From Quadrisphaera sp. (GTDB lineage: Bacteria; Actinomycetota; Actinomycetes; Actinomycetales; Quadrisphaeraceae), in the NCBI GenBank assembly GCA_029257185.1, contig JARICT010000036.1:1-64000 (forward strand): 64,000 nt of DNA, read 5' to 3'. Made by a program: the position numbers and the translations under genes. Position 1 is the first letter of the stretch. The number at the start of each line of letters is the position of its first letter. This document shows positions 42,734 through 59,373 of the stretch, one piece after another. The notes beneath the pieces are model-generated. The model had not been told where the DNA came from. It did not search any database and saw only the letters and a list, made by a program, of their open reading frames with translations.

Positions 42734-43870
42734 TCAGTCGGAGCGGCTGGAGCCCCCGTCGGAGTCCCTGTCGTCGCCGGAGCCGGCGTGACGGCCGGTC
42801 TGAGCGCGCGCCTCGTCGATCGACCGGGTCTCGCCGCCGCTGAGGCGCAGCGCGCGGGCCTTCTCGACGTCCTCGGCCTCCTTGGCCGCCGCCTTGTCGG
42901 CCTTCGAGGTGTCCCGCGGGGGCAGCTGGATGGTCTCCTCGGCGGCGAGCCCGGCCTGCAGCTCGCGGCCGCGCTCGACCTCGGCGTCGATCTCCGCGCC
43001 GAAGAGCAGGGCGTTGTTGGTGATCCACAGCCACAGCAGGGCGATGATGACGCCCGCGAGGGAGCCGTAGGTCGCGTTGTAGCTGCCGAAGTTCGCGACG
43101 TAGAAGAAGAAGCCCAGCGACGCGAGCAGCCAGATGATGATGGCGACGAACGAGCCCATCGACATCCAGCGGAACTTCGGCTGCTTCACGTTGGGCGTGA
43201 AGTAGTAGAGGATCGCGATGACCAGCACGATGATGAGCGCCAGGACCGGCCACTTCGCGTAGGCCCACACCGTCAGCGCCGTGGAACCGAGCCCCACGAC
43301 GTCACCGATGGCCTGGGCGACGGGCCCGGAGACCACGATGATGAGCAGCGCCAGCGCCACGAGGACCAGCATGACGACGGTGATGAGGATCATCACCGGG
43401 CGCAGCTTCCAGACGGGGCGTCCCTCGTCGATCTCGTAGACCTGGTTCATGGCGCGCGAGAAGGCGTTGACGTAGCCCGAGGCCGAGAAGATGGCCGTCA
43501 GCAGACCCAGACCCAGGCCGGCCCCACCGACCTGCTTCACGATCTCGCTCACCGGGCCCTGGATGGTGTCCGCCACCGTCGCGCCGCCGAGGTTCCGCAC
43601 GATGTCGAGCACCGTGCTGATGGTCGACTCGGCCTCGCCCACCACACCCAGCAGCGAGACCAGCGCGATGAGCGCCGGGAAGATCGCCAGCACCATGAAG
43701 TACGTCAGCGCCGCCGCGAGGTCGGTGCAGTTGTCGCTCGTGAACTCGCGGAACGCCTTGCCCAGCACGTACTTCCACGACGGCTTCTTCACGTCGGTGG
43801 GGCGTTTCGGCTTCCGGTCGTCGTCCGGGTGCGGGGCCGTCGCCGCCTTGCTGCTGCTGTCGCTAGTCAC
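42734..43870 (-). CDS. YihY/BrkB-family inner-membrane protein
   Basis: 378 residues with six membrane helices between about 40 and 295. Family signatures: DLAAALTYFMVLAIFPALIA near the first helix, TAIFSASGYVNAFSRAMNQVYE, and FGSYNATYGSLAGVIIALLWLW. An acidic/basic cytoplasmic tail (about 300-378) follows. Function unknown; the family was once wrongly named ribonuclease BN. The start is GTG 43870, fixed by a leaderless promoter (TACCCT, 6 nt); the long open frame upstream belongs to another strand's coding. Confidence 0.92.
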   Translation of the reverse strand: MTSDSSSKAATAPHPDDDRKPKRPTDVKKPSWKYVLGKAFREFTSDNCTDLAAALTYFMVLAIFPALIALVSLLGVVGEAESTISTVLDIVRNLGGATVADTIQGPVSEIVKQVGGAGLGLGLLTAIFSASGYVNAFSRAMNQVYEIDEGRPVWKLRPVMILITVVMLVLVALALLIIVVSGPVAQAIGDVVGLGSTALTVWAYAKWPVLALIIVLVIAILYYFTPNVKQPKFRWMSMGSFVAIIIWLLASLGFFFYVANFGSYNATYGSLAGVIIALLWLWITNNALLFGAEIDAEVERGRELQAGLAAEETIQLPPRDTSKADKAAAKEAEDVEKARALRLSGGETRSIDEARAQTGRHAGSGDDRDSDGGSSRSD

Positions 43871-44569: not shown

Positions 44570-44626
44570 CACGCCCCGCGGTGAGGGACCTCTTGTCTCC
44601 TCGCCGCGGTCCACGGAGCACGCCCG

Positions 44627-44656
44627 GGAGCCGTACCGCCGTCGCGGTGCGGCTCC
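44627..44656 (+). terminator. Strong hairpin after small membrane protein gene
   Basis: GGAGCCGTACCGC-CGTC-GCGGTGCGGCTCC: a 13-bp stem (one G-U pair in RNA), 58 bp after the stop. No U-run; a typical GC-rich terminator of this genome type. Confidence 0.55.
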
Positions 44657-44699
44657 TGGTGCGTCCGGCTCTCCGGGGGCGGATCGCCGTTCCGCGTGC

Positions 44700-44720
44700 C
44701 AGGCTTACGCCGCAAGCCTG
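44700..44720. promoter_or_regulatory. Perfect palindrome before the glycosyltransferase operon
   Basis: CAGGCTT-ACGCCGC-AAGCCTG, 7-bp arms and 7-bp spacer, 46 bp before GTG 44766. Well placed for an operator controlling the four-gene operon; the regulator is not identifiable. Confidence 0.45.
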
Positions 44721-44765: not shown

Positions 44766-45518
44766 GTGCAGCGCAGCGAGGTCCAGCGTGTGCAGCGCCA
44801 CGAGGTAGATCGCGTGGTCGTGGTCGTCCCCGCCCACGACGAGGTCGATCTCCTCCCGGGCTGCCTGGCGGCCCTGCGCGTCGCGGCGGTCCCGGTCCCG
44901 GTGGTCGTGGACGTGGTGGTCGTGCTCGACGCGTGCACCGACGGCAGCGCCCGCCTCCTGGGACCGCAGGAGCGCCCCGTGGTGGTCGACGTCCGCAACG
45001 TCGGCGCCGCGCGGGCAGCCGGCTTCGCCGCCGCGGACGTCGGCGCGAGGACGTGGTGCGCCACCACGGACGCTGACTCCCGCGTCCACCCGCGGTGGCT
45101 GGCCGCCCAGCTGCGGTGGGCCTCACGGGGCGCCGACGTGGTCGTCGGTGCGGTCGCTGCGTCGTCGTGGGACGGGCACGCACCGGGGGTCGAGGAGCTC
45201 TTCACCAGGGAGTACGCCGCGGGGTCGTCCGCGGGCCGGCACGCCCACGTCCACGGGGCCAACCTCGGGCTGAGCGGTGACGCGTACCTGGCGCTCGGCG
45301 GCTTCTCCCCCCTGGCCGCGCACGAGGACGTCGACCTCGTGCGCCGGGCGGAGGCCGCTGGACTGGTGCTCCGGTGGGCGCTCGACGTGGGCGTCAGCAC
45401 CTCGACCCGCACGGTGGGGCGCGCGCCCGACGGGTTCGCCGACCACCTCGCCGCCCTGACGGCGCGCGTCGTGCCCGCCCCCGGCCTCGCGCAGGACCTC
45501 GCGCAGGGCGCCGCGTGA
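44766..45518 (+). CDS. Family 2 glycosyltransferase
   Basis: A 250-residue GT-A fold enzyme using a nucleotide sugar. VVVVVPAHDEVDLLPGCLAAL (about 18-38) is the nucleotide-binding strand; VVLDACTDGSA is the first acidic motif; TDADSRVHPRWL holds the DxD metal site; GGFSPLAAHEDVDLVRRAE is the acceptor-side ED motif. No membrane helices, so soluble or peripheral. The first of four genes joined by GTGA overlaps or tiny gaps. GTG start after GAGGAGGAG. Confidence 0.9.
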   Translation: MQRSEVQRVQRHEVDRVVVVVPAHDEVDLLPGCLAALRVAAVPVPVVVDVVVVLDACTDGSARLLGPQERPVVVDVRNVGAARAAGFAAADVGARTWCATTDADSRVHPRWLAAQLRWASRGADVVVGAVAASSWDGHAPGVEELFTREYAAGSSAGRHAHVHGANLGLSGDAYLALGGFSPLAAHEDVDLVRRAEAAGLVLRWALDVGVSTSTRTVGRAPDGFADHLAALTARVVPAPGLAQDLAQGAA

Positions 45519-46489
45519 CCGGGGCGCCGCGAGCGCCCGGCGCGGCCGAGGAGCTCGCGCGGCTCTCCCGCGAGGGTCTCGACCTCCCGCTGCCGGGCGG
45601 CGGCGCGACGGCGCAGCGGTGGGCCGCGCTCGCCGCCCTGGCGCGCCGCGACGTGGTGCTGGGACGTCTGGCGGAGGCCCACGCCGACGCGGTGGCGATC
45701 CTCGCCGAGCTGGACGGGCCGTCGCCGACCGCGGGGCAGGTGTGGGGGGTGTGGGCCGCGGAGCCGCCGGACCCGGTGCTGCGCGCCGACGACGCCGAGG
45801 GCGGTGACCGTCCGCACGGGGAGAGGAGCTGGACGGTGACCGGCACCAAGGCCTGGTGCTCGGGGGCCCACAGCTGCACCCACGCCCTCGTCACCGCCCG
45901 CCACGGTCAGGCGCGACCGCTCTTCGCCGTCGACCTCGGCCACCCCGGGGTCCGCCCCGTCCCCGGGACGTGGCGCGCGGTGGGCATGGCGGCCAGCGAC
46001 TCCGGGGAGGTCGCCTTCGACCGCGTCCCCGCCCTCCCGGTGGGCCCGCCCGCCGGGTACCTGGAGCGAGCCGGGTTCTGGCACGGCGCCGTCGGGGTGG
46101 CCGCGGCCTGGTACGGCGGCGCCTGCGGGGTCGCCGACGCCCTCGCGCGCCGGGTGGAGCGCGGCGGCGCCGACGGGCACGTGCGCGCCCACCTGGGCGC
46201 GGTGGTCGCCGCGCTGGCCGGTGCGCGGTCCACCCTGCACGCCGCCGCCGCCGAGATCGACGCCGATCCCGCGGCCGACGCCATGGGCACCGCGCTGGCG
46301 GCCCGCGCCGTGGTGGAGGCCGCGGCGACCACCACCCTGGAGCGCACCGGCAGGGCGCTGGGGGCCGGCCCGCTGTGCGCCGACGCGCAGCACGCCGCCC
46401 GCGTCGCCGACCTGAGCGTCTACCTGCGGCAGTCCCACGCGGAGCGGGACCTCGTGGCGCTCGCCGACCACGGCGGCGCCCGATGGTGA
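45515..46489 (+). CDS. Acyl-CoA dehydrogenase-like protein
   Basis: 324 residues, shorter than typical acyl-CoA dehydrogenases (about 380). The middle beta-domain motif TVTGTKAWCSGAHSCTHALV (about 105-125) and a C-terminal helical bundle (about 190-320, ending DLSVYLRQSHAERDL) are visible. The usual catalytic glutamate region could not be assigned and the N-terminal helical domain is short. It may oxidise an acyl or amino-sugar-linked chain, or have lost activity. GTGA overlap with the glycosyltransferase fixes the start. Confidence 0.8.
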   Translation: MTGAPRAPGAAEELARLSREGLDLPLPGGGATAQRWAALAALARRDVVLGRLAEAHADAVAILAELDGPSPTAGQVWGVWAAEPPDPVLRADDAEGGDRPHGERSWTVTGTKAWCSGAHSCTHALVTARHGQARPLFAVDLGHPGVRPVPGTWRAVGMAASDSGEVAFDRVPALPVGPPAGYLERAGFWHGAVGVAAAWYGGACGVADALARRVERGGADGHVRAHLGAVVAALAGARSTLHAAAAEIDADPAADAMGTALAARAVVEAAATTTLERTGRALGAGPLCADAQHAARVADLSVYLRQSHAERDLVALADHGGARW

Positions 46490-46504
46490 CCCCGTGGTGA
46501 CCTC

Positions 46505-47269
46505 GTGGTGACCGAGCCGCTCATCCACGGCCGCGGCACGCCGGCCGAGGCGTGGGCGGCGTGGCGACCGCCGCGGCCCGTGCTGGCGCTCGAGGGGTGC
46601 TCACGGCTGGTCGTCGTCGCCCCGCACCCCGACGACGAGGTGCTCGGGGTCGGCGGCCTCATCATGACGGCGGCCAGCACCGGCGCGGCCGTCCAGGTGG
46701 TCGCGGTCACCGACGGCGGCGCGAGCCATCCCGGCTCCCCCACGCTGAGCAGGACGGACCTCGAGCGCCTGCGCCCCGCCGAGAGCGCCGCCGCGCTCGC
46801 CCGGCTCGGCGTCACCGCGGGTGCTCTGCGGCTGGCGGTGCCCGACGGCGCCGTGGCCGATGCGCAGGAGCGGGTGACCGACGCTGTCGCGGCGCTGGTC
46901 ACCGGCGGCGCAGCGAGCAGCGCACCGCAGGGCTGCACCTGGGTGGTCACCACCTGGCGCGGCGACGGGCACCCCGACCACGAGGCGACCGGCCGCGCCT
47001 GCGCCCGCGCCTGCGAGGCGACCGGCGCCCGCCTGCTCGAGCACCCGGTGTGGACCTGGCACTGGGCGACGCCCGGCGACGCGCGGGTGCCGTGGGGCCG
47101 GGCTGCGGCGCTGCCCCTGTCCGCGGAGGTCCAGCACGCCAAGGCCGAGGCGGTGGGCTGCTTCACCACGCAGGTCCGCGCGCTGTCCGACCACCCCGCC
47201 GACGCCCCCGTGCTGGGCCCTCACGTGCTGGAGCGCCTGCTCCGCGAGGAGGAGGTGGTCTTCACGTGA
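46505..47269 (+). CDS. PIG-L family deacetylase
   Basis: 254 residues. Zn-binding APHPDDEVLGVGG (about 39-51), VTDGGASHPGSP, and HPDHEATGRA (about 158-167), the second His motif. PIG-L enzymes remove N-acetyl from GlcNAc conjugates (MshB, BshB, GPI synthesis). Within this operon it would deacetylate a glycoconjugate made by the glycosyltransferase (inferred). GTG 46505 or the adjoining GTG 46508 is the start. The stop overlaps the next start by 4 bp. Confidence 0.93.
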   Translation: MVTEPLIHGRGTPAEAWAAWRPPRPVLALEGCSRLVVVAPHPDDEVLGVGGLIMTAASTGAAVQVVAVTDGGASHPGSPTLSRTDLERLRPAESAAALARLGVTAGALRLAVPDGAVADAQERVTDAVAALVTGGAASSAPQGCTWVVTTWRGDGHPDHEATGRACARACEATGARLLEHPVWTWHWATPGDARVPWGRAAALPLSAEVQHAKAEAVGCFTTQVRALSDHPADAPVLGPHVLERLLREEEVVFT

Positions 47270-47871
47270 GCCTGCCGCCCGAGTTCTTCGACGACTTCTA
47301 CGCCGCCGGCGGCGCCGACCCGTGGGGCTTCACCTCTCGCTGGTACGAGCAGCGCAAGCGGGCCCTGACGCTCGCCGCGCTGCCTCGGACCCGCTACCGC
47401 CGGGGGCTGGAGCCGGGATGCTCGACGGGGGTGCTGTCAACAGCCCTGGCGCAGCGGTGCGAGGCGCTGGTCGCCACCGACGTCGCCGAGGCCGCGCTGG
47501 CCGAGGCCGCGCGCCGCGTGCCGGGCAACGTCGAGCTGCGTCGCTGGGGGCTGCGAGACCCGTGGCCGGACGAGACCTTCGACCTCGTGGTGCTCTCCGA
47601 GGTCGGCTACTACCTCGACGCCGACGCGCTGGAGGGCGAGGTGCCGCACGTGATCGACGCCCTGGAACCCGGCGGGACGCTCGTCCTCGCGCACTGGCGC
47701 CACGACGTGCCGGAGTACCCGCTGAGCGGCGACGTCGTCCACCGGGTCGTCTCCGCGCGGGCCGGCCTGGCGCGGGTGGGAGGCTGGCTGGACGACGACC
47801 TGCGCCTCGACGTGCTGGAGCGCGCCGACGCCCCGGTGCCCTCGGTCGCCTCGCGCGACGGCCTCGTCTGA
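47266..47871 (+). CDS. NodS-like SAM-dependent methyltransferase
   Basis: 201 residues. FFDDFYAAGGADPWGFTSRWYEQRK at the start (shown in part: DPWGFTSRWYEQRK) and motif I GLEPGCSTGVLSTALA with LVATDVAEAALAEAARRV match the nodulation-protein-S family, whose founding member N-methylates a deacetylated glucosamine of lipochitooligosaccharides. Following a PIG-L deacetylase, methylation of a freed amine is a reasonable inference. It ends 6 bp before the convergent oxidoreductase gene. Confidence 0.87.
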   Translation: MSLPPEFFDDFYAAGGADPWGFTSRWYEQRKRALTLAALPRTRYRRGLEPGCSTGVLSTALAQRCEALVATDVAEAALAEAARRVPGNVELRRWGLRDPWPDETFDLVVLSEVGYYLDADALEGEVPHVIDALEPGGTLVLAHWRHDVPEYPLSGDVVHRVVSARAGLARVGGWLDDDLRLDVLERADAPVPSVASRDGLV

Positions 47872-54373: not shown

Positions 54374-55471
54374 ATGACGGCACACCCCCAGCCCCGACCG
54401 GGAGCCTGGTCGCTGCTGACCCGCGGTCCGGCCTCACCGGACGTGGACGCGCTGCCCCTCGCCGGAGCGCCGACCCCCGACACCACCCGGTGGGTGCGCG
54501 CCGTCCTGGCCGACACCGTCCCGGCGATGGCCGCGGTCTCCGGTCGCCTCGTCGCGCTGCGCGAGGGGCGCAAGCGGCTGGCCGTGCTCCACCCCGACGA
54601 CGGCCCGTCGCTGGTGCTCAAGCAGTACTCCGACGATCGCGGGGCGTGGACCCAGCGGTGGATGCAGCGGCTGGCCGAGGCCGGCATGGCGCCGCCGGCC
54701 CGCCTCTCGGTGACACCGGCGCGGGGATGGTCGCCCGCGCACAAGACCCTGGTGGCCGACCTGGCGCTGGGCGCCGAGTGGTCCGGCTCGCTGCAGGCCC
54801 CGGCGGCCGAGCGCGACGCGGCGGCGGTCGCCGCCGCGGACTGGCTGGTCGAGCTGGCAGCGCTGCCGGTGACCCTGCCGGACCGCACCGGCTACCGCGC
54901 CGGCGAGGACCTGCGCCGCCACAGCGGCGAGCTCGCCGACGAGCACCCGACGCGCGCCACCCGGCTGCTGGGTGTCTCTGGGACGGCCCAGTCGCGGCTC
55001 TACGGCGACCCGCGGGCGGGCGCCGACGACCTGGTCGCCTCCCACGGTGACCTGCACCCGGCGAACCTGTTCGTGGCGAGCGGCGGGCCCCTCGCGGTGA
55101 CCGCCATCGACGTCGACACCGCGGGGCTGCGCCGGCCCTCCTACGACGTCGGCTACGCCCTGGCCCAGCTGCTGGTCGCCTCCTGGATGCGCACCGGCTC
55201 CTTCGCGGCCGGGGCGAGCGCCGGCGCGGCCTTCTGGCAGCGGTGGAGCGCCCACGACGGCCGCGACGCCGACGCGGTGCCCGCGCAGGTGGTCCGCGCG
55301 CTGGTGCAGAGCCTGCACTTCGAGCTGGTCGTCTACCGCAACGGCCGCACCGACCTGCTGGAGCCGTGGCTGGCCGTCGCCGAGACCGTCCTCGCCGACG
55401 GCGTGCCCGCCACCCTCCACGCCCTCACCACCTCCCACCCCCTCACCACCGCCGAGGAGCCCACGCCGTGA
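54374..55471 (+). CDS. APH-like phosphotransferase, paralogue 2
   Basis: 365 residues. ATP lysine in LVLKQYSDDRG, catalytic loop SHGDLHPANLF with Asp and the metal-binding Asn both present, and metal site IDVDTAGLRRPSYDVGYAL. Paralogous to 50540-51613 but with an intact active site. It starts the operon with a GH57 enzyme and an ABC exporter and overlaps the GH57 start by 4 bp, suggesting that it phosphorylates a sugar or sugar-derived compound (inferred). ATG 54374 is chosen for AGGAGCCAGCAGGAC upstream; earlier in-frame starts at 54308 and 54332 exist. Confidence 0.87.
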   Translation: MTAHPQPRPGAWSLLTRGPASPDVDALPLAGAPTPDTTRWVRAVLADTVPAMAAVSGRLVALREGRKRLAVLHPDDGPSLVLKQYSDDRGAWTQRWMQRLAEAGMAPPARLSVTPARGWSPAHKTLVADLALGAEWSGSLQAPAAERDAAAVAAADWLVELAALPVTLPDRTGYRAGEDLRRHSGELADEHPTRATRLLGVSGTAQSRLYGDPRAGADDLVASHGDLHPANLFVASGGPLAVTAIDVDTAGLRRPSYDVGYALAQLLVASWMRTGSFAAGASAGAAFWQRWSAHDGRDADAVPAQVVRALVQSLHFELVVYRNGRTDLLEPWLAVAETVLADGVPATLHALTTSHPLTTAEEPTP

Positions 55472-57537
55472 CCGCCGCCCCGATCGCCTTCGTCCACCAC
55501 GCGAACCAGTTCGTCATCACCGACGGGTACGCCGACCGCGACGGGATCTCCACGACCGCCGCCGGTTACGACGCGGTGCTCTCGCTGCACGTCGAGCTCG
55601 GCATCCCGGTGTCGCTGCACGTCTCCGGTCCGGCGCTGGAGGCCATCGCCTGGCACCGCCCCGCCCTGCTGGCCCGGCTGCGCCAGCACCTGGCCAGCGG
55701 CTTCGTCACCCTCATCGGCGGCACCTACGGCGAGAACGTCATGCCGCTGTCCTCCCCGCGGCACAACCGCCGGCAGCTGCGGGCCTTCCACGACCTCGCC
55801 GAGGACCTCCTCGAGGTGCCCCGCGAGCGCCTGAGGACCGCGTGGGTTCCCGAGCGGGTGTGGGAGACGGGGTCGTGCGCCGCCCCGCTGCGCGACGAGG
55901 CCGCCACCGGCGTGGCCTACCAGCGGGTGCTGGTGGACGACCGGCTGGCCCACCCCCTGCGCGAGGGCGCCTACCCGGGCAGCAGCCGGGAGGCCTTCGA
56001 CGCCGCCGGCCCGTACCGCTGGCACGAGGACGGCTTCCCCGGCACCGTGCGCGGGCGCCTGCACCCGGGCTCGCTGGAGCCCTACCGGATCGCCGGCGGC
56101 GACGGGCTGGTCGCCGTGCCGATCGCCTCGCACCTGCGCTACCTCATGCCCCCGCACGACCCGGACCACCTGCGGCTGCTCACCGAGCTCGCCGAGGACG
56201 CGCGGTCCGCCCCGGAGGGGTCGCTGATGGTCTTCGCCGACGACCTCGAGCGGGTCGCCGGCGTCGCCGGATGGGAGCAGGGGCTGGAGCGCTACGCGCG
56301 GTTCCTGCGCTGGCTGACCCGCAGCGACGCGCTGCGCCCGGTCGCGCTCGACGACTGGTGCGACCGCTCCGAGCCCGGCCCCGAGCTGACGGTGGAAGCC
56401 GGCACCTACTACGAGCTGGCCCACCACCACGGCTCCGGCGAGGACTACGGCCGGTGGGCCGACGACCCGCGCTGGCGCCCCTTCGCCGACCGCCTCGACC
56501 GGGTCGACGCGGCGCTCGAGAGCGCCGAGGACGACGGCGCCGCACCGGAGCTCACCGCTCTGGCCGAGCGCCTGGTGATGCTGGGCCGTCACGAGACCGC
56601 CTGGCAGGACCCCGACGCCGACGGCGACGGCGGCCGGGCCCCCGCCCCGTGGGCGAAGGCCACCGCCGCGCACGCCGCGGACGCGCTGCCCGTGCTCGCC
56701 GCCGCCCGCTGGGCCGCCGACCCGGCGCCCCGGGGCCTGCGGGTCCTGGTCACGGACGTGGACGAGGACGGCGACGACGAGGTGGTCCTCAGCAGCGACC
56801 GGCTCTTCGCCGTGCTCTCGCCGCGTCACGGGGGCCGCCTCAGCCTGCTGGTGCGCCGCGAGCACGACGCCGGCACCGACGCGCGAGCGGCAGTGGTCGT
56901 CGGCAACCCCGCCGACCACTGGAACTTCCAGACCGAGCTGCACCAGCACATGCAGGAGCCGCCGAACCACCCCGGCGCCCTGGCCGTGCTCGGCACCGAG
57001 ACGCACCGCCACGAGCTGGGCCGCGTCGAGGTCACCTCGAGCGCCGCGGTGGTCGAGCTCATCGACGTCGAGCCCGGCCCGGACCGCGGCCTGACGAAGC
57101 AGCTGCTGCTGACCGCGGACGGCACCTCGCTGACGGTGTGCGTGCGGCGCAGCGGCCTGCCGGGCGAGCTGCGCACCACCGTGGCGCTGTCCCCGGACTA
57201 CCCGCGCCTGCTGACCGGTGGACGAGAGCGGCTCGAGCCCGACCAGGGGCGGACGTGGTGGGCGGCCCGCACCCCGGTGCTGGACGCGTGGGTCGCCCAC
57301 GACCCGGCCGAGGACGCCGCCCAGCTGGTCGACACCAGCCCGCTCACCGGCCACGCGCGGGTCGGCGCCGTCGACGGCTGCGGGCGCCACCTCCACCTCG
57401 TGGTGGGCACCGGCCCCGTCGACGACACGACCGGCCCGGCGCTGATCGCGGGCGCGGACGCCCACCTGCACCCGGCCGCGGCGGGCACGCTGCCCCGGCC
57501 CGCCGGGGCGGTGCCGGCAGGAGCGGGCGCCCGATGA
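55468..57537 (+). CDS. GH57-family glycoside hydrolase
   Basis: 689 residues. The N-terminal (beta/alpha)7 barrel begins FVHHANQFVITDGY; the nucleophile is Glu129 in AWVPERVWETG, the canonical GH57 WxPE motif; the acid/base is probably in VFADDLERV (about 253). The second half (about 410-680) is a beta-rich DUF1925/1926-like part. GH57 enzymes act on alpha-glucans (amylase, 4-alpha-glucanotransferase, branching). No signal peptide, so cytosolic. Coupled by GTGA to the phosphotransferase and by ATGA to a 24-codon ORF that leads into an exporter. Confidence 0.88.
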   Translation: MTAAPIAFVHHANQFVITDGYADRDGISTTAAGYDAVLSLHVELGIPVSLHVSGPALEAIAWHRPALLARLRQHLASGFVTLIGGTYGENVMPLSSPRHNRRQLRAFHDLAEDLLEVPRERLRTAWVPERVWETGSCAAPLRDEAATGVAYQRVLVDDRLAHPLREGAYPGSSREAFDAAGPYRWHEDGFPGTVRGRLHPGSLEPYRIAGGDGLVAVPIASHLRYLMPPHDPDHLRLLTELAEDARSAPEGSLMVFADDLERVAGVAGWEQGLERYARFLRWLTRSDALRPVALDDWCDRSEPGPELTVEAGTYYELAHHHGSGEDYGRWADDPRWRPFADRLDRVDAALESAEDDGAAPELTALAERLVMLGRHETAWQDPDADGDGGRAPAPWAKATAAHAADALPVLAAARWAADPAPRGLRVLVTDVDEDGDDEVVLSSDRLFAVLSPRHGGRLSLLVRREHDAGTDARAAVVVGNPADHWNFQTELHQHMQEPPNHPGALAVLGTETHRHELGRVEVTSSAAVVELIDVEPGPDRGLTKQLLLTADGTSLTVCVRRSGLPGELRTTVALSPDYPRLLTGGRERLEPDQGRTWWAARTPVLDAWVAHDPAEDAAQLVDTSPLTGHARVGAVDGCGRHLHLVVGTGPVDDTTGPALIAGADAHLHPAAAGTLPRPAGAVPAGAGAR

Positions 57538-57608
57538 CGGCGGTGACGCCCCACGAGAAGGACGTCGCCCTGCGACACCGACGAGGACAGGAGCTGCCCC
57601 GTGCTTGA
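57534..57608 (+). CDS. 24-codon ORF bridging GH57 and exporter genes
   Basis: ATG 57534 overlaps the GH57 stop (ATGA), and its own stop overlaps the exporter start by 8 bp (GTGCTTGA). The product would be MTAVTPHEKDVALRHRRGQE plus four residues, basic. It probably carries ribosomes across the 63-bp gap, whether or not the peptide has a function. Confidence 0.4.
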   Translation: MTAVTPHEKDVALRHRRGQELPRA

Positions 57609-59373
57609 GATCGTGCGCCGCTTCGGCCCCACCCTGAAGCCCTACCGGCTCAAGATGGTGGTCGGCGGGCTGCTGGTGCTGCTCGTGGCGGCCGTCGAGC
57701 TCACGCTGCCGTGGCCGCTGAAGGTCGTGGTCGACGACGTGCTGCGCGGGCGCGCTCCCACCGGGTGGCTCGGCGACCTGCTCGGCCCGCTCGCGGACTC
57801 CCCGACGGCCGTGCTCACCGCCGCCTCCCTGGCCATGGTGGTGCTCGCCGCGCTGGCGGCGCTGGGCACCTACGTCTCCTCGCGGCTGCTGCAGAGCGTC
57901 GGCGAACGGCTCGTCGCCGACCTGCGCACCGAGATCTTCGCGCACCTGCAGCGGCTGTCGCTGGCCTTTCACGGCCGGCAGCGGGTGGGGGACCTCTCCA
58001 CCCGGCTGACCGGCGACGTGGCCGCCATCCAGGCCCTGCTGGTCGCCGTCTTCAGCATCATGCTGCCGAACGTGGCGCTGCTCGTGGGCATCGTCATCGT
58101 CTCGGTCGTCATCGAGCCGGTGTTCGCGGTGCTGCTGCTGTTCGTCGCCCCCACCCTGTACGGCGTCGTGCGCCACTACCGCGGCGCCATCAAGGCGGCC
58201 TCCCGCGACGCGCGCACCCACGAGGGCAGGGTCTCCAGCCACGTCACCGAGACCCTGACCACCATCCGCCTGCTGCAGTCCTTCGCCGCGGAGAGCCGCA
58301 GCCTGGACCGGTTCCGCGTCCACACCCGGGCGCGCCTGGACGCCGGGCTGCGCCAGGTGGACCTGCAGTCCCGGCTGCCCGCCGCCATCGAGGTGGTCGG
58401 GCAGGTCGGCCGCGCCGCCGTGATGTTCGTCGGCGCCACCCTGGTGCTGCGCGGCCAGCTCAGCCTCGGCGTGATGCTCGTGCTGATGACCTACCTCCAG
58501 CAGGTGTACGCCCCGATGAAGGCCCTGGCCCGGCTGACGTCCACGATCAGCAAGGCCCAGGCCGGCGCCGAGCGCGTGGAGGAGGTGCTGCGCTCCACCG
58601 CGGTGGTCGAGGAGGCCCCTGACGCGCTGCCGGCGCCGAGGCTCTCCGGGGACGTGGAGCTCCGGGACGTCTCCTTCGGCTACCAGCCCGGCCGACCGGT
58701 CCTGCGCGACGTCAGCGTCCGCGCCCGGCCCGGCCAGGTCGTCGCCCTCGCCGGCACCACCGGGGCCGGCAAGTCCACCGTCGCCAGTCTGATACCCCGC
58801 CTCTACGACGTCACCGCCGGCCAGGTCCTCCTGGACGGGCACGACGTCCGCGGGCTGACCCTCCAGTCGGTCCGCAGCCAGGTCGCCGTCGTCCCCCAGG
58901 AGCCCCTGATGATCGTCGGGACCGTCCTGGAGAACATCGCCTACGGCGCCCCGGGCGCCAGCCGCGAGCAGCTCCTCACGGCGGCCGAGGCCGCCTACGT
59001 CGACGAGTTCGTGGACCGCCTCCCGGACGGGTACGACACCGTCGTGGCCGAGGGCGGGTCCTCGCTGTCCGGCGGGCAGCGCCAGCGCATCGCCATCGCC
59101 CGCGCCCTCGCCGCCGACACCCCCGTCGTCGTCCTCGACGAACCGACCAGCGGGCTCGACGCGCTCAGCGAGAGCTACGTGATGCGCGGCCTGGCCCGGC
59201 TCACCGCCGGACGGACCGTCCTGGTCATCGCCCACCGCCTCAGCACCCTGCGGGACGCCGACGCGGTGTACGTCGTCGACGACGGCCGCGTCGTCGACAC
59301 CGGCACCCACGCCGAGCTCACCGCACGGCCCGGGCGCTACCGCGACATGTTCGACACGCTCGTCGCGTCCTGA
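57601..59373 (+). CDS. ABC exporter (fused permease-ATPase)
   Basis: 590 residues: six membrane helices (about 15-310) fused to an ATPase. Walker A AGTTGAGKST (about 390), Q-loop VVPQEPLMIVGTV, signature SSLSGGQRQRIAIARALA, Walker B VVVLDEPTSGLD, switch IAHRLSTL. Type IV half-transporter that dimerises and exports lipids, peptides or small molecules. Position after a kinase and GH57 suggests export of a glucan-derived or glycosylated product (inferred). GTG start after ACAGGAG. Confidence 0.93.
   Translation: MLEIVRRFGPTLKPYRLKMVVGGLLVLLVAAVELTLPWPLKVVVDDVLRGRAPTGWLGDLLGPLADSPTAVLTAASLAMVVLAALAALGTYVSSRLLQSVGERLVADLRTEIFAHLQRLSLAFHGRQRVGDLSTRLTGDVAAIQALLVAVFSIMLPNVALLVGIVIVSVVIEPVFAVLLLFVAPTLYGVVRHYRGAIKAASRDARTHEGRVSSHVTETLTTIRLLQSFAAESRSLDRFRVHTRARLDAGLRQVDLQSRLPAAIEVVGQVGRAAVMFVGATLVLRGQLSLGVMLVLMTYLQQVYAPMKALARLTSTISKAQAGAERVEEVLRSTAVVEEAPDALPAPRLSGDVELRDVSFGYQPGRPVLRDVSVRARPGQVVALAGTTGAGKSTVASLIPRLYDVTAGQVLLDGHDVRGLTLQSVRSQVAVVPQEPLMIVGTVLENIAYGAPGASREQLLTAAEAAYVDEFVDRLPDGYDTVVAEGGSSLSGGQRQRIAIARALAADTPVVVLDEPTSGLDALSESYVMRGLARLTAGRTVLVIAHRLSTLRDADAVYVVDDGRVVDTGTHAELTARPGRYRDMFDTLVAS

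Follow-up and report, generated by a model that had tools for sequence, protein, structure and literature searches.

The stretch of DNA analysed here (hereafter the window) comprises 64,000 nucleotides of contig JARICT010000036.1 from Quadrisphaera sp. (assembly GCA_029257185.1). It carries a four-gene operon encoding a GT2 glycosyltransferase, a flavoprotein with an acyl-CoA dehydrogenase (ACAD) fold, a PIG-L family de-N-acetylase and a NodS-family S-adenosylmethionine (SAM)-dependent methyltransferase (MT) (Table 1). The four genes at 44766-47871, pointed out in an original prediction made from the sequence alone, are intact, lie on the same strand and match the Pfam families given in Table 1; each open reading frame contains only one stop, and its GC at third codon positions is 0.94-0.96. 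The GTGA overlaps described in that prediction are present at two of the three junctions (45515-45518, GT2/ACAD-like; 47266-47269, PIG-L/MT), whereas a 15-bp gap separates the ACAD-like and PIG-L genes. As both are read in one frame, losing a single stop would be enough to join them.

Table 1 Operon genes and upstream palindrome in the window
Feature	Coordinates	Strand	Family matches and remarks
GT2 glycosyltransferase, GT-A fold, 250 aa	44766..45518	+	PF00535 (5e-11), PF13632
ACAD-fold flavoprotein, 324 aa	45515..46489	+	PF02770, Acyl-CoA_dh_M (3e-10)
PIG-L family de-N-acetylase, 254 aa	46505..47269	+	PF02585 (5e-25)
NodS-family SAM-dependent methyltransferase, 201 aa	47266..47871	+	PF05401 (1e-11); NF041650 below cut-off
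Palindrome CAGGCTTACGCCGCAAGCCTG	44700..44720	.	5' of operon; unsupported as operator

Conservation of the neighbourhood in other genomes, the test by which the original prediction was to stand or fall, was found across Actinomycetota and Pseudomonadota. Twelve aligned sequences of the ACAD-like protein, used to scan one genome per species, identified at least 528 confirmed relatives, and in 61 of the 80 best loci all four genes lie on one strand within 6 kb. Among these best 80, two gene orders dominate: GT2-ACAD-PIGL-MT, found in Rhodococcus, Nocardia, Mycobacterium and the window, and ACAD-PIGL-MT-GT2, found in Streptomyces, Kitasatospora and Variovorax. To guard against circularity, about 300 genomes were also drawn from each of the two phyla and searched with the MT as sole query (E≤1e-20). 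The enzyme was present in 33/297 Actinomycetota and 31/299 Pseudomonadota genomes, 21 of the latter scoring above 140 bits. For 40 of these MT loci, 20 from each phylum, the surrounding 20 kb or so was read: the ACAD-like gene was found within 7 kb in 38 of them, a deacetylase in 35 and the GT2 in 32; the complete set stands beside the MT gene in 31. Annotated plasmids of Kitasatospora, Acinetobacter, Pandoraea and Comamonas carry the same four genes, a Cupriavidus plasmid has the set but no PIG-L gene beside it on the same strand, and close variants are found on plasmids of alphaproteobacteria. Deinococcus and Nostoc possess related sets with partly rearranged genes. This conservation is far beyond chance. 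No published description of the module was found in the open-access papers searched; its genes are annotated singly in databases and the set as a whole is unexplained.

With roughly even confidence, we propose that the four genes constitute a dedicated, horizontally spread module for the synthesis of a modified amino-sugar glycoside or a glycan cap. The deacetylase would strip the acetyl group from the transferred sugar and the NodS-family enzyme would then N-methylate the freed amine. In the PIG-L protein, which matches PF02585, the metal-site motifs of a de-N-acetylase are invariant: HPDDE (41-45) and the HxDH-type residues D154/H156/D158/H159. PIG-L and MT form a single open reading frame in 6 of 8 same-order relatives, as well as in Brevibacterium and a Streptomyces; NCBI names such fused proteins 'bifunctional PIG-L deacetylase/SAM methyltransferase', an automatic name with no assigned function. 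In a Nesterenkonia metagenome-assembled genome (MAG), one 975-aa frame spans the ACAD-like, PIG-L and MT domains, possibly as the result of a sequencing error.

The strongest evidence for coupled steps is the replacement of PIG-L by a CE4 polysaccharide deacetylase. PIG-L is absent from 10 of the 20 Actinomycetota loci (hereafter Rubrobacter-type; L232, L234-L236, L238-L241, L244, L245; likewise L269), and a CE4 gene stands beside the module in 10/10. It is next to the ACAD-like gene in 9 of these 10, L238 having CE4 and MT only, and none of the PIG-L-bearing loci searched contained CE4. On a Rubrobacter indicoceani plasmid (L269:6951-11602), the order is polysaccharide deacetylase, ACAD-like protein, MT, FAD-dependent oxidoreductase and glycosyltransferase. 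The CE4 protein tested has NodB as its best NCBIfam match (106 bits, cut-off 240). Two unrelated deacetylase folds occupy the same slot, which argues for sugar de-N-acetylation as this step. Hence the predicted series of glycosylation, de-N-acetylation and amine modification is supported by the conserved set, the fusions and the swap to a NodB-like CE4 enzyme, and deacetylation and methylation appear to be coupled; the product itself is what we infer from them.

The replacement also bears on another scheme, with chemistry that is not Nod-like: PIG-L, MT and the ACAD-like protein would have as their substrate an amide or acyl group that is not part of a sugar, such as a CoA or amino-acid conjugate, and the GT2 would add its sugar last. 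We consider this distinctly unlikely. PIG-L family members, such as Mca, also cleave conjugates, and the ACAD fold is classically directed at acyl-CoA, but CE4 enzymes deacetylate polysaccharides and chitooligosaccharides, and the catalytic Glu of ACADs has been lost, as described below. That the operon branches off a known thiol pathway (mycothiol, bacillithiol) or another characterised one is hardly credible. Its PIG-L protein scores highest against BshB1 (51.9 bits) and weakly against MshB (19.1 bits) and Mca, yet all these scores are far below the curated cut-offs (182.5 for BshB1, 224.35 for MshB), so that the mycothiol/bacillithiol-type chemistry evoked in the original prediction was not borne out. 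In addition, the genome has five other PIG-L-type genes and, to our knowledge, the thiol pathways use no GT2, NodS-type MT or ACAD-like protein.

The MT matches the methyltransferase 4isc (9e-37) and NodS 3ofj (2e-11) in the PDB. It passes the cut-off of the wider Pfam NodS family and misses that of the NodS equivalog NF041650 (54.4 versus 300 bits). Its fusion to the deacetylase and its co-conservation suggest that it methylates the freed sugar amine, on N rather than on O. During Nod-factor synthesis, N-methylation by NodS is seen only once the substrate is deacetylated (PMC5080398), and it is because of this precedent that methylation is placed after deacetylation. A Nod-factor-like chitooligosaccharide signal as the product is nevertheless very unlikely. 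The NodS-family membership of the MT and the NodB match of the Rubrobacter-type deacetylase would fit such a signal, but both enzymes fall short of the equivalog cut-offs, the loci read showed no NodA-like acyltransferase, and the hosts (free-living actinomycetes, mycobacteria, Acinetobacter and others) share no symbiosis.

The ACAD-like protein had been regarded as the odd partner of the set. It is instead its most constant member, found in all but two of the MT-found loci, and a dehydrogenase by name only. Its AlphaFold2 model (predicted local distance difference test, pLDDT, 94.4) displays a confident ACAD fold and, in agreement with PF02770 and the fold search, a flavin-binding middle domain. 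Foldseek against the PDB ranked the monooxygenases TdsC/DszC and MsuC on top, with the nitrososynthases (DnmZ/ORF36/KijD3) and ACADs close behind, and profile searches agreed with this ranking (DszC/TdsC, MsuC, amino-sugar nitrososynthases). True ACADs score nearly as high by fold, so the similarity to nitrososynthases and group D monooxygenases is not exclusive; the fold alone is undecided and, therefore, the active site decides. In an hhalign alignment to two canonical ACADs encoded in the same genome, Gln306 falls at the position of the catalytic Glu of the C-terminal (Y/G)EG(T/S) motif. Gln is found in 63/63 homologues having a residue there, and the residue that follows is H, S, T, Q or F, never Glu. 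H56 is conserved in 64/64 sequences and S116, within a CSGA motif also present in DszC, in 63/64.

Judged by these residues, the ACAD-like protein is not an acyl-CoA dehydrogenase. The fold similarity and the missing Glu are those of a nitrososynthase or group D flavin monooxygenase, and residues, fold and profiles together indicate that the protein is probably a flavin monooxygenase or oxygenase. Known nitrososynthases have nucleotide amino sugars as substrates. Because these enzymes act on amino sugars, our best guess by analogy is N-oxidation: the flavoprotein would oxidise the product of the other enzymes, most likely on nitrogen. Electrons would be supplied by a reductase encoded elsewhere. 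A Pyr_redox_2 reductase resembling ferredoxin--NAD+ reductases has been gained in 9/10 Rubrobacter-type loci; a protein of this type would feed electrons to oxygenases, which fits the need of a two-component flavin oxygenase. A related reductase is encoded beside a GT2-ACAD pair, on the opposite strand, in a Mycobacterium MAG (L066:10945-12075). In two Deinococcus loci (L147:2448-4820, L153:2190-4529), the ACAD-like domain is fused behind a domain of about 400 aa. This domain resembles, by eye, a glycoside hydrolase TIM barrel; it has no Pfam or PDB match, and no relation was found to the extra glycosyltransferase of Novosphingobium.

The GT2 has the PF00535 family and GT-A fold expected of such an enzyme (AlphaFold2 pLDDT 93.5), its PDB fold matches being GT-A enzymes such as WrtF. 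The residues D102/D104 (DxD motif) and E187 are invariant in 56 relatives. We propose that it is an N-acetylhexosaminyl transferase, which would transfer the N-acetylhexosamine to a cytosolic acceptor. The fate of this sugar is where a further reading departs from ours: a polymer or surface glycan (exopolysaccharide, cell-wall polysaccharide) would be capped or decorated through the same amino-sugar logic, with no small molecule being made. Unlikely in our view, this reading draws on the CE4 replacement and on single proteins joining GT2, NodS-like MT and CE4 deacetylase in alphaproteobacteria (L181, L188, L268:4396-7476), both of which recall polysaccharide tailoring. Extra glycosyltransferase genes also adjoin the module in Novosphingobium and Sphingobium, and glf and other glycosyltransferase genes stand beside the MT gene in Deinococcus proteolyticus. 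However, none of the loci read combines the module with a polymerase, a flippase or an ABC exporter, the GT2 is short and the module often forms an operon of its own.

A modified amino-sugar glycoside or glycan cap could have a protective role, to which the surroundings of the module in Pseudomonadota point. A panel of stress genes (catalase, OtsA/B, PA2169-type, Ku/LigD, YihY, PRC-barrel, BON and others) matched 9/20 module regions and 0/20 control regions of the same genomes (p=6e-4); this panel was picked from annotated plasmid copies of the module, hence not blind, and several controls share one genome. In Comamonas plasmids (L142:5948-10944, L143:7580-12548), the order otsA-ACAD-PIGL-MT-GT2-otsB places the module inside a trehalose operon, and otsA/otsB, catalase and DUF421 genes lie near it on an Acinetobacter plasmid. 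Mobilizable Acinetobacter plasmids of clinical isolates (e.g. L027:8231-11241) combine the module with catalase and otsA/otsB. Thus, in Pseudomonadota, the module often lies amid genes for drying and oxidative stress, and its product is therefore probably protective.

Several observations weigh against this proposal as a whole. In Actinomycetota, the phylum of the window, the stress panel shows no enrichment (2/20 module regions versus 1/19 controls). The window operon is devoid of a reductase gene, an adjacent one being found in Rubrobacter-type loci only, and the module is patchy within the window's own family. Some slow-growing Mycobacterium (L051, L065, L080, L089, L098) hold the ACAD-like gene alone, with no module MT in the genome; this lone gene may serve another function, or the pathway may be decaying. 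PIG-L and NodS-like folds have many substrates, and we know of no substrate, product or mutant for the module.

The module, a proposed form of amino-sugar tailoring, is common, mobile and testable. If our proposal is right, hundreds of sequenced species (Rhodococcus, mycobacteria, Streptomyces, Deinococcus and the Acinetobacter plasmids of clinical isolates among them) would share one amino-sugar product. In Pseudomonadota this product would go with trehalose, catalase and DNA-repair genes, making it a testable candidate stress metabolite. A recurring uncharacterised 'acyl-CoA dehydrogenase' would be explained, and Nod-factor-type chemistry would exist outside symbiosis. The furthest-reaching version is possible but doubtful: widespread N-methylated and N-oxidised amino-sugar metabolites, made in several phyla for general stress protection, with an ACAD-fold enzyme repurposed as an amino-sugar oxygenase.

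Upstream of the operon, the palindrome that the original prediction placed in a promoter is present, but its regulatory reading was dropped. The 3.05-Mb assembly has a single copy of its core, the spacer 3' of the upstream gene contains a longer inverted repeat of 16 nt (44624-44659), and a search for sigma-70-like promoters and terminator-like sites found none. The palindrome is therefore unsupported as a shared operator, and a regulon built on it was rejected. The operon is flanked by genes for a YihY/BrkB protein (42734-43870, upstream), a zinc dehydrogenase, a HAD phosphatase and an aldo/keto reductase. YihY is also encoded near the module in Roseomonas (L146) and Streptomyces-type genomes. 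Flank clustering indicated that YihY, HAD and zinc-dehydrogenase-like genes adjoin other module loci too, a hint only, as it relied on a home-made gene finder that worked for very GC-rich loci alone. Further downstream, genes for an APH-type kinase and then for a protein weakly matching GH57 (54443-57537) adjoin that of an ABC-transporter-like protein (57601-59373); this region is possibly another sugar locus. A phage-defence function was also considered and rejected, PADLOC giving one generic match for the MT (mad2, 6e-17) and none for the other three genes.

Among known systems, the Nod-factor core (NodC, a GT2; NodB; NodS) follows the same order of reaction types as the module, namely GT2 glycosylation, de-N-acetylation and NodS-family methylation, and Rubrobacter-type loci share with it a CE4 deacetylase, for which NodB is the best named match. 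The module differs from this core by PIG-L in most lineages, by the additional ACAD-fold flavoprotein, and by the lack of any NodA seen and of a link to symbiosis. Mycothiol and bacillithiol synthesis (MshA/B, BshA/B) likewise uses a glycosyltransferase and then PIG-L de-N-acetylation of a GlcNAc conjugate. There, the glycosyltransferase is a GT4, not a GT2, neither a NodS-like MT nor an ACAD is known to take part, and the module PIG-L is below the MshB, Mca and BshB cut-offs. The nitrososynthases and group D flavin monooxygenases (DnmZ, ORF36, KijD3, DszC/TdsC, MsuC) share with the ACAD-like protein its fold and closest profiles; the latter is shorter (324 aa), about 16-22% identical in the fold matches, and has the conserved Gln at the catalytic Glu site. 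The same enzyme types are united in one chain in proteins that NCBI names automatically, with no function assigned, 'trifunctional glycosyltransferase/class I SAM-dependent methyltransferase/polysaccharide deacetylase', whose MT is more distant from that of the module (about 110-120 bits). Overall, as far as sequence comparison can tell, the module works like the NodC/NodB/NodS core, yet it is neither a pathway to mycothiol or bacillithiol nor a Nod system, its enzymes lying below the NodS and NodB equivalog cut-offs and no NodA accompanying them in the loci read.

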